DNA of 64,000 bases from Limosilactobacillus fermentum (GTDB lineage Bacteria; Bacillota; Bacilli; Lactobacillales; Lactobacillaceae), in contig NZ_CP040910.1 of the NCBI RefSeq assembly GCF_013394085.1, positions 335,950 to 399,949 of the forward strand, in the 5' to 3' direction. Both the position numbers and the translations under genes were made by a program. Shown in pieces: positions 28,930 through 55,481 of this stretch; position 1 is the first letter of the stretch; every line of letters begins with the position of its first letter. Below the pieces are notes generated by a model, which worked only from the letters and a program-made list of their open reading frames with translations, ran no database searches and was not told where the DNA came from.

Positions 28930-28969
28930 AAAACCGTCCCTTAGCAAGCCAGCAAAGGGACGGTTTTTG
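28930..28969 (+). terminator. Terminator after gltX
   Basis: AAACCGTCCCTT pairs with AAGGGACGGTTT, followed by TT(G)T. Confidence 0.85.
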
Positions 28970-28987
28970 TTCCAAAAGAGGGAGCCT

Positions 28988-29557
28988 ATGGAGTCACTAA
29001 ATCAAATTAAAGCGGCCACCCAAACCGGGGTGACGGAGTTATTAGAAGCCGCCCACTTAAAGCGTGGCGACCTGTTTGTCTTGGGGCTGAGCACCAGTGA
29101 GGTGCAGGGTGAACACATCGGCCAAGATTCCAACATTGAGATTGGAAGGACGGTCGTTAAAGCGATCGTGGAATTATTGGCACCGAGGGGGATTAACCTG
29201 GCCGTGCAGGGGTGTGAACATCTTAACCGGGCCCTGGTGGTGGAACGGGCGGTGGCAGAACAACGGGGCTTGGAGATCGTGACCGTTTACCCGCAGCTGC
29301 ACGCTGGTGGGGCCGGACAGGTGGCGGCCTTTGAACTCTTTGATGATCCCGTTGAAGTTGAACACGTGGTGGCCGAGGCCGGCATTGACATTGGCGACAC
29401 CAGTATCGGCATGCAGGTTAAGTTTGTCCAGATTCCGGTGCGGACCAGCGTCAAAGAAATTGGCCAGGCCCACGTTACTTACTTACGTTCCCGGCCCAAG
29501 TTAATTGGTGGGGCGCGGGCCAAGTACGAATGGGACCCGTTTGATCAAAAGAAATAA
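28988..29557 (+). CDS. UPF0340/TIGR01440 family protein (YwlG-like)
   Basis: A 189-aa conserved protein of unknown function. It carries the family features [10 protein letters not shown], a [13 protein letters not shown] segment and [13 protein letters not shown]. Homologues are widespread in Firmicutes without an assigned activity. The ATG 28988 follows AGAGGGAG, which overlaps the gltX terminator tail, so it probably needs read-through or a weak promoter of its own. Confidence 0.85.
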
Positions 29558-29559
29558 CA

Positions 29560-29607
29560 AACGCCCAGTGGGGTTCGGTTTAACGAAGCTCACTGGGCGT
29601 TATTTTT
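29560..29607 (+). terminator. Terminator after the YwlG-like gene
   Basis: AACGCCCAGTG (29560-29570) pairs perfectly with CACTGGGCGTT (29591-29601), followed by ATTTTT. It faces the minus-strand small-RNA terminator a few bases away. Confidence 0.85.
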
Positions 29608-29610
29608 GGC

Positions 29611-29761
29611 AATAAAAAAGCGGTGGCTTGGGAGGACCACCGCAGAGGAGTATTACGATATCTTGGGGGAGATTTCGTAAAAGTATATTTTTCGGTTACT
29701 ATTGGGAGGAGTAATTGAAAAATAATAGGTTTCGGTTAAATGTAGCTCGTTTCCTTGCTAC
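29611..29761 (-). ncRNA. Candidate small RNA with C-rich (anti-Shine-Dalgarno) hairpin loops
   Basis: Read on the minus strand from about 29761, this gene-free segment folds into consecutive hairpins: GTAGC/GCTAC (29742-29761); TTACT/AGTAA (29696-29714) with loop CCTCCCAAT; an 11-bp stem with one mismatch (29653-29680) with loop CCCCCA; a single-stranded ACTCCTCT; and an intrinsic terminator GCGGTGG/CCACCGC (29620-29643) with loop TCCTCCCAAG and a TTTTTT tail. TATAAA at plus 29764-29769 is a possible -10; the -35 is weak. Repeated CCTCC in loops is the design of sRNAs that pair with ribosome sites. No ORF of note on either strand. The region upstream to cysS (29770-29904) holds only the divergent start area. 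Confidence 0.6.
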
Positions 29762-29904
29762 GGTTTATATAGTATCAGTTGGTTGTGAAGAAAATATGAC
29801 TAAGTGCTTAATAATTATCAAACCCCATTTCTGGGTTCGCCACTGGTCCCGTCCAACTTGTGGTAAGATAGTACTATTCTAGATCGACCACTGGAGGTAA
29901 TCAC

Positions 29905-31323
29905 ATGTTGAAAATATACAACACACTCACCCGGCAAAAAGAAGAATTTCACCCCCAACAAGCAGGGATCGTTAACATGTACGTCTGTGGTCCGACCGTC
30001 TACAATTATATTCACATCGGCAACGCCCGGAGCGTGGTCGCCTTTGATACGGTGCGCCGCTACCTAGAGTTTTCTGGCTACCAAGTTAATTACGTCTCCA
30101 ACTTCACCGATGTTGATGACAAGATGATAAAGGCCGCCAAGGAGCAGGGGATCACGGTGCCAGAGTTGGCGTATAAGTACATCCAAGCCTACATGGAAGA
30201 CACCGCCGCTTTGAACGTCGAACCCGCCACTACCCACCCCCGGGCAACCGAAAACATTGACGGGATTATTTCCTTTATTGAAGACCTGATTGAAAAGGGC
30301 TACGCCTACCAAAGTGGGGGCGACGTGTACTACCGGGCCCGCAAGTTTGCCCACTATGGTCAACTGTCCGGTCAGTCCCTAGACGACCTGGAAGTCGGGG
30401 CTAGCGAACACGTTTCAACAGAAGAGGTGGCAAAAAAAAAGGACCCGCTCGATTTCGCCCTCTGGAAGGCGGCCAAGCCCGGCGAGATCAAGTGGGACTC
30501 CCCGTGGGGGGCCGGGCGCCCGGGCTGGCATATTGAGTGCTCGGTGATGTCAACCAAGTACCTGGGTGATACCCTAGACATTCACGCCGGTGGTCAGGAC
30601 CTCGAGTTCCCCCACCACGAAAATGAAATCGCCCAGAGCGAAGCCAAGACGGGCCACCGCTTCGTTAACTACTGGATGCACAACGGCTTTGTAACGATCG
30701 GTAGGGACAACGAAAAGATGAGCAAGTCCCTGGGCAACTTCGTCACGGTGCACGACTTAATTAAGGAAGTTGACCCGCAGGTGTTACGGTTCTTCATGTC
30801 AACGACCCAGTACCGGCGCCCAATTCAATACAGTCAAGAAAGCTTGGTGGAAGCCCAAGCTAACTTAGAGCACTTAAAAAACACTTACGACAACCTGGCT
30901 TACCGGCTCAAAGACGCTACGTCCGGGACCGATGGCGGCGTGCAACGGCAACTAGCGGACTTCCGGGCCCGCTTTGTGGCAGCCATGGATGATGATATTA
31001 ACGTTCAAAACGGGATTGCCGTGGTTTACGAGTTGATGCGCTTTGCTAACCAGTACGTTGAACAACGCCTGGTGCAGCGCGAACCAATCGTTGCCATTCA
31101 ATTAATGTTAAAACGGTTAGTAGCGGTCTTTGGGGTTGACCTGGCCGTTTCCGCTACTGAAATTAACGACGAAAAAATTAAGGAACTGATCGAAAAGCGC
31201 AACGCCGCCCGGGCGGAAAAAGACTTCGCTTTAAGTGACCAGATCCGCGACCAGTTAAGGGACCAGGGGATCATTTTAGAGGACACCCCCCAGGGGACCC
31301 GTTACAGAAAGGAATCAAATTAG
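29905..31323 (+). CDS. cysS: Cysteine--tRNA ligase
   Basis: 472-aa class I synthetase charging tRNA-Cys. HIGH appears as HIGNARSVV (about 38), KMSKS as KMSKSLGN (about 272). The zinc ligands are present in [19 protein letters not shown] and HHENE. GGAGGT lies 9 bases before the ATG. No T-box is visible in the short leader. It heads the conserved cysS-mrnC-rlmB cluster. Confidence 0.96.
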
Positions 31324-38484: not shown

Positions 38485-38494
38485 AGGGGAGTTG

Positions 38495-38605
38495 ATTAAA
38501 TATGACTCTGCCTAAGACTCAGGTGGCGCAAGCCTCAATACCCTGCCGAGGAAGAAATGAAATGTTCCTTCTCTATGTCTGCCAGTCATAGGGAATTTTT
38601 TATAA
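38495..38605 (+). promoter_or_regulatory. Ribosomal protein L10 leader with attenuator
   Basis: The leader between promoter and rplJ contains the L10(L12)4-type features (AGGTGGCGCAAGCCTCAATACCC) and a downstream hairpin (about 38565-38596, TCTATG/CATAGG) followed by TTTTTT. In Firmicutes L10 binding favours this terminator and so adjusts L10/L7-L12 synthesis. Confidence 0.75.
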
Positions 38606-38641
38606 ATTCCAATCAAACTAACATGTAGGAGGTGTAATTTC

Positions 38642-55373: not shown

Positions 55374-55467
55374 TGCCGTTAGGCCTTAGGGCAAGGGCGT
55401 CCTTACGAACCGTGTCAGGCCTGGAAGGGAGCAGCACTAAGTTTGCGATTTCTTGTGCCCTAAGTTT
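55374..55467 (+). ncRNA. ffs: Signal recognition particle RNA (small bacterial 4.5S-like type)
   Basis: The conserved domain IV is exact: TGTCAGGCCTGGAAGG, then GAGCAGCACTAAG (55413-55441). The outer stem CTTAGGGCAAG pairs with CTTGTGCCCTAAG (to about 55463). A TATGAT -10 lies at 55362-55367. It forms the SRP with Ffh. The ends are approximate. Confidence 0.92.
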
Positions 55468-55481
55468 GAATGAAATTAACC

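Follow-up and report, generated by a model that had tools for sequence, protein, structure and literature searches.

An unannotated, conserved small RNA gene with C-rich anti-Shine-Dalgarno loops upstream of cysS in Limosilactobacillus

Small RNAs that carry C-rich segments complementary to ribosome sites have been described in several Gram-positive bacteria. LhrC of Listeria is described as using three UCCC sites, located in loops and linker, to bind the ribosome-site region, and as being multicopy, placed under two-component control and induced by envelope stress (passages of PMC4132741). The streptococcal csRNAs likewise present loops or a linker complementary to ribosome sites (passages of PMC3091779 and PMC8186281). 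Their promoters are reported to contain the CiaR repeat TTTAAG-N5-TTTAAG, with ten bases to the -10 element, and CiaH homologues are reported to be missing in Lactobacillus (passages of PMC3091779).

We analyzed a locus of this general design in a 64,000-nucleotide stretch of the Limosilactobacillus fermentum genome (hereafter the window). The small RNA gene is unannotated. It occupies the minus strand of the interval flanked by cysS and a TIGR01440-family gene, and consists of a promoter, a hairpin at the 5' end, a pair of C-rich hairpins, a linker containing CTCC, and an intrinsic terminator that is also C-rich. The features, in the order of the minus strand, are as follows.

29905 to 31323, plus strand: cysS, divergent neighbour (open reading frame; homologues named as relatives of its protein)
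29784 to 29800, minus strand: direct repeat GTCATA-N5-TTCACA, putative response-regulator site
29769 to 29777, minus strand: extended -10 element TG-A-TACTAT
29614 to 29761, minus strand: small RNA gene, about 148 nt (model match, 46-sequence alignment, covariation)
29742 to 29761, minus strand: 5' hairpin (5 of 8 pairs changed on both sides)
29686 to 29724, minus strand: hairpin 1, loop CCTCCCAAT (fold; loop and stem invariance, see below)
29653 to 29680, minus strand: hairpin 2, loop CCCCCA (5 of 9 counted pairs changed on both sides)
29645 to 29651, minus strand: single-stranded linker ACTCCTC
29614 to 29643, minus strand: intrinsic terminator with C-rich loop TCCTCCCA, then six T (terminator scan; 9 of 9 pairs changed on both sides)
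28967 to 29557, plus strand: TIGR01440-family gene, convergent neighbour (open reading frame; TIGR01440 at 255.5 bits against a cut-off of 145.3)

A first-pass annotation of this DNA had placed a minus-strand RNA at 29611-29761, which differs by at most 3 nt from the model match at 29614-29761, and the fold and terminator scan recovered the loops and the intrinsic terminator that it described. The 5' hairpin (29761-29742) is an addition to its list. The probable transcript start, 29761, lies seven bases past the conserved extended -10 element. By DNA search, the gene is single-copy in the source genome (1.89 Mb, one contig). An encoded peptide was considered and rejected: the RNA of the window contains no complete open reading frame from ATG, GTG or TTG, and those in other alignment rows reach up to 38 codons, so that no reading frame is kept throughout. 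Next to the gene, a long plus-strand inverted repeat with T-runs (29558-29607) ends the TIGR01440-family gene and abuts the terminator of the small RNA, placing two convergent terminators back to back.

Folding of the minus strand from 29770 to 29600 gave -37 kcal/mol (z = -5.44), a value as low as which was found in none of 200 shuffles. Clusters of three C-rich hairpins within 110 nt occurred once on the minus strand of the window, never on the plus strand, and never in 100 single-base shuffles of the window. The two strands of the window carry 22 and 15 individual C-rich hairpins, above the shuffle mean of 10.96, so the unusual feature is the cluster rather than the single hairpin.

Matches at E <= 0.1 were found in all 50 Limosilactobacillus genomes, source genome included, and 49 of these were strong (E 3.9e-18 or better), the genome G034 reaching E 0.047. 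Examples of named species with the RNA in front of cysS are Limosilactobacillus kribbianus, gastricus, avistercoris, balticus, mucosae, rudii and alvi as well as Paucilactobacillus suebicus. Its structure was assessed on an alignment of 46 distinct sequences, from which RNAalifold alone derived 21 pairs, 14 of them with double changes, and missed hairpin 2. A 39-pair, four-helix structure, written by hand on the basis of the fold of the window sequence and a visual check of the alignment, was paired in 90.7% of cells, compared with 39.8-58.0% for slid controls, and 19 of its 39 pairs showed changes on both sides. Five structure measures were equalled by 0, 2, 0, 0 and 0 of 500 shuffles, a significance that is overstated because the shuffles ignore relatedness. 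Compensatory changes occur in three of the four helices. Hairpin 1 is the exception, with no double change and 9 of 13 pairs that never vary, and its structure therefore rests on folding and invariance. Hairpin 2 is paired in 79.3% of cells, its innermost counted pair failing in 35 of the 46 sequences. As for the unpaired segments, every one of the 46 sequences has CTCCTCCC in the loop of hairpin 1 and CCCC in that of hairpin 2; the terminator loop keeps CCC in 40 of them, and the linker keeps ACTCC in 36. The pattern is thus the opposite of loops that vary freely over stems that are not kept: the loops are fixed, and the stems of three helices change in compensation. Conservation, covariation, promoter and terminator strongly support the unannotated small RNA with repeated anti-Shine-Dalgarno loops proposed initially, and at the level of sequence they establish a conserved structured gene with a promoter, a terminator and fixed C-rich loops.

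The position of the element upstream of cysS across the genus, together with a plus strand that also folds (z = -3.45), could point to a plus-strand leader or attenuator of cysS. We rejected this reading as extremely improbable, given that the scan found a T-run terminator on the minus strand only and that no T-box or other leader reached threshold. When three poorly aligned pairs of hairpin 2 are left out, the remaining 36 of 39 pairs contain 62 G-U cells and 24 A-C cells, which favours the minus strand. Furthermore, none of 40 loci of other genera has a match beside cysS, and the homologues in those genera are located elsewhere.

The minus-strand RNA gene seems, from sequence comparison, to have been lost in G034 and would therefore not be essential. 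In this genome, a single contig rated 100% complete, the gene order is rlmB-like, mrnC-like, cysS, with cysS starting right after the stop of the mrnC-like gene, whereas in the window those genes follow cysS. Since cysS directly follows the mrnC-like and rlmB-like genes, its usual upstream region is missing, and model R3 found no match at the G034 cysS locus (L220, G034:C1 around 1239356). The G034 gene order around cysS may reflect a rearrangement or an assembly effect.

No Rfam family reached its threshold at the small RNA locus, no paper naming this RNA was found in the open literature, and the accessible portions of PMC3166299, PMC7724050 and PMC5603721 contain nothing on it. The likeliest relative is Ref84 (Enterococcus sRNA 84, RF02846), which is not named in any of 15 open papers listed by a literature search. 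Of the 295 genomes of the order, 94 contain Ref84, in 40 of them above threshold; none of those belongs to the family of the source organism. A shared core is detectable in both directions. The Ref84 model scores these RNAs at 25.4-37.1 bits (E 0.09-8.3) in strand and register, matches that are singly not significant, and at the window it reaches 25.4 bits (E 0.29), below the gathering score of 52. Conversely, of 30 Ref84 loci, 28 are matched at the Ref84 site by model R2, which was made without Ref84 members (E 6.4e-5 to 0.34), and all 30 by R3 (E 4.1e-5 to 0.016), for which the best match off the site in these loci had E 0.046 and the best in 48 other sources E 0.14; the 30 loci are related to each other and not independent. 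Both RNAs have a CTCC hairpin after a T-rich stretch, an ACTCC linker and a terminator. Multiple copies per genome, as in some of the homologues described below, are the rule in many Ref84 members, and four of 21 members inspected read ATTTTTCATTTTACTCCTCC-AGAGTAAAAT-AACTCC-terminator. However, Ref84 is the shorter RNA, at 87 positions, with neither the 5' hairpin nor hairpin 2, and the promoters inspected looked different by eye. Remote common descent, rather than membership, therefore appears likeliest from these comparisons.

Like LhrC (RF00616), the RNA carries several UCCC-type sites in loops and linker, but unlike LhrC it is present in only one copy in the source genome. The LhrC model scored 29.0 bits at the homologue L208 and 24.1 bits at another homologue, below its gathering score of 110, and gave no match at the window at E <= 10; the accessible text of PMC4132741 offered no LisR consensus for comparison. 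As in csRNA promoters, two hexamers stand 5 bases apart and 9-10 bases before the -10 element, but these are GTCATA and TTCACA instead of TTTAAG, and a CiaR repeat was not recovered. The csRNA model (RF02379, gathering 57) reached 29 bits at the homologue L203 and gave no match at the window at E <= 10. The initial comparison with csRNAs is consequently apt for how the RNA may work and fails as a statement of membership, since the repeat differs and the Rfam csRNA model is not reached. The lowest E value at the window belonged to ar14, an alphaproteobacterial RNA with C-rich loops (E 0.0048, 25.5 bits, gathering 58.8; 33.5 bits at the homologue L210). Sub-threshold matches of ar14, OmrA-B, MicF, CyaR and rli32 were judged to be look-alikes because their sources, in contrast to that of Ref84, are distant bacteria or single loci, and ar14 was taken as a case of convergence. 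The RNA has the unpaired C-rich segments complementary to ribosome sites that mark C-rich anti-Shine-Dalgarno small RNAs. Judged by its sequence, it is a new family of this known kind and a member of neither LhrC nor the csRNAs.

Beyond the genus, R2 matched at E <= 0.01 in at least 11 of the 295 genomes of the order, a lower bound because ten candidates were scored per genome. Eight of these 11 genomes lie outside Limosilactobacillus. Judged by the similarity of their CysS, three of the eight resemble Lactiplantibacillus, one is near Paucilactobacillus and Secundilactobacillus, and four are less clear. Two or three copies within about 6.5 kb were found in five of the eight, some of them weak (E up to 0.41). 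Inspected by eye, the region before the first copy holds a full TTCACA-type repeat in five of these genomes; in another the repeat is partial, and the remaining two have none. Double changes were seen at all 22 RNAalifold pairs when 31 matches were aligned across genera, an alignment that was fitted to the model and is so biased toward its structure. At L209/L214 (G087:C1 around 1139000), three C-rich RNA-like units stand in tandem between genes that by eye are leucyl-tRNA-synthetase-like and serine-dehydratase-like; the nearest named locus to the CysS of G087 is from Cytobacillus. A cysS match in another genome (L227, G166:C24:104979-106385) carries one internal TAA.

The promoter of the RNA reads, in order, the repeat (29800-29784), six bases, the extended -10 element (29777-29769) and seven bases to 29761, the 11-bp direct repeat GTCATA-N5-TTCACA sitting nine bases before the -10. 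Both half-sites are kept in 38 of 38 distinct promoters, where they fit [GAT]TCA[CT]N-N5-TTCANA, and TG-N-TANNAT is present in 37 of the 38, these patterns having been composed after viewing the alignment. From this geometry, we infer an OmpR-family regulator as the putative binder of the repeat. The source genome has seven matches to the OmpR-type DNA-binding domain. With a position matrix that gives the RNA's own promoter 49.6 bits, no box above 6 bits was found in the scanned regulator loci of the source genome; matches to a simple box pattern barely outnumbered those to its reverse (23 versus 17), and the regulators beside two homologues indicated no single source-genome regulator. PhoP control was rejected, the source pst region having, by eye, TTTACA/TGTAAA-type repeats unlike TTCACA. 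A resemblance of the repeat to the YclJ box of Bacillus subtilis was considered; the literature search returned no documentation of it. For the regulator at L165, PieR is the closest model (303.8 bits, below the cut-off of 450), and the accessible part of the PieRS paper gave no binding motif. Two further loci of the source genome were noted. At L163:5720-6424 (G000:C1 around 1308719), a protein of 234 aa that contains an OmpR-type DNA-binding domain is encoded divergently from pst-like genes; the majority of its best NCBIfam matches align chiefly to the C-terminal half, and its receiver half may be unusual. At L180 (G000:C1:881378-881409, minus strand), a gene whose hydrophobic 59-aa product matches no Pfam family is preceded by TCACCCCTTCTTCAAATTCGCCGTGCTATAAT, which is much like the promoter of the RNA with one base more before the -10 element, and this gene is possibly under the same regulator as the small RNA.

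On balance, we lean toward a trans-acting RNA gene that is activated by a two-component regulator and blocks the translation of envelope genes. An OmpR-family response regulator would bind GTCATA-N5-TTCACA and activate the extended -10 promoter, as the geometry suggests. The transcript of about 148 nt would fold into the 5' hairpin, two hairpins presenting CCTCCCAA and CCCCC, the CTCC linker and a terminator with a CCTCCCA loop, a structure backed by covariation except in hairpin 1. Through its C-rich segments it may then base-pair with TTGGGAGGA and similar G-rich ribosome sites, keeping several mRNAs from being translated. The favoured targets, on statistical grounds, would be lipoproteins, secreted proteins and membrane proteins, so that the RNA would reduce the output of envelope proteins, probably when the envelope is under stress. 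LhrC (passages of PMC4132741) and the csRNAs (passages of PMC8186281 and PMC3091779) are described as working in this manner.

Candidate targets were collected as occurrences of the loop complement TTGGGAGG with an ATG 3-10 bases on, of which there were 62 in ten genomes. All 58 distinct loci were examined; 46 had an open reading frame of at least 60 aa, falling into 37 families, and 12 were dropped. A membrane segment was present in 22 of the 37 families, a hydrophobic N-terminus in 19 and a lipobox in 4. The control motif TTAGGAGG (70 loci examined of 286 matches in the same ten genomes) gave 53 families, with 14, 10 and 0, respectively, and the control AAGGGAGG (70 loci of 116 matches, same genomes) gave 50 families, with 14, 14 and 0. 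Against TTAGGAGG and AAGGGAGG, respectively, enrichment gave one-sided Fisher p values of 0.0017 and 0.0031 for the membrane segment, and p values of 0.0013 and 0.023 for the hydrophobic N-terminus and of 0.026 and 0.030 for the lipobox, all uncorrected for multiple tests; the membrane trend was noticed before the classifier was written, and the controls were sampled by hand and unevenly over genomes.

This enrichment against two control motifs bears on a second reading, in which a trans-acting C-rich RNA would have no envelope bias and would act as a brake on many G-rich ribosome sites in response to a metabolic or growth signal. C-rich small RNAs of Gram-positive bacteria serve metabolism too, and 15 of the 37 candidate families have no membrane segment; with the enrichment set against these points, we regard this reading as unlikely. 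It is still less probable, to the point of being improbable, that the RNA binds a protein or acts as a sponge for another RNA, with the CTCC hairpins as binding sites. The stem of hairpin 1 is as fixed as its loop, with its 9 invariant pairs of 13, beyond the needs of leader pairing, as such a role might explain. However, several separate C-rich segments are kept, and the same kind of segment in LhrC is described as pairing with mRNA (passages of PMC4132741).

Under the envelope-directed reading, the recurrent candidates are an amino-acid permease (4 loci), a GdpP-type c-di-AMP phosphodiesterase and an HlyD-like adaptor (3 loci each), and a DUF4097 protein and a lipoprotein (2 loci each); none of these recurrent families is among the candidates of the source genome. 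The source genome also encodes a lipoprotein (gene near 1310237) whose ribosome site contains TTTTGGGAGGA. Just upstream stands GCAGAGGAGT, the exact complement of ACTCCTCTGC (the linker plus two bases of the terminator stem), a linker match that was noticed post hoc. Predicted duplexes with this leader reach -22.5 kcal/mol for the terminator segment, -18.0 for hairpin 1 and -18.3 for the linker, energies that omit the cost of opening the hairpins.

If the proposed mechanism is true, widely used gut and food bacteria own a conserved post-transcriptional regulator, the cell envelope is tied to a two-component signal via an RNA, as reported for Listeria and streptococci, and separately named RNA families are bridged. 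More tentatively, and in our view rather doubtfully, this RNA and Ref84, perhaps with LhrC and the csRNAs, may share one ancestral Lactobacillales RNA, fast-evolving and variable in copy number, that kept the CTCC hairpin, CTCC linker and terminator while exchanging response regulators, and that would throttle envelope protein synthesis order-wide. The alignment and models could serve to build an Rfam family. Elsewhere in the window, two other RNAs scored above their Rfam thresholds, a ribosomal L10 leader at 38493-38609 and a small signal-recognition-particle RNA at 55377-55474.
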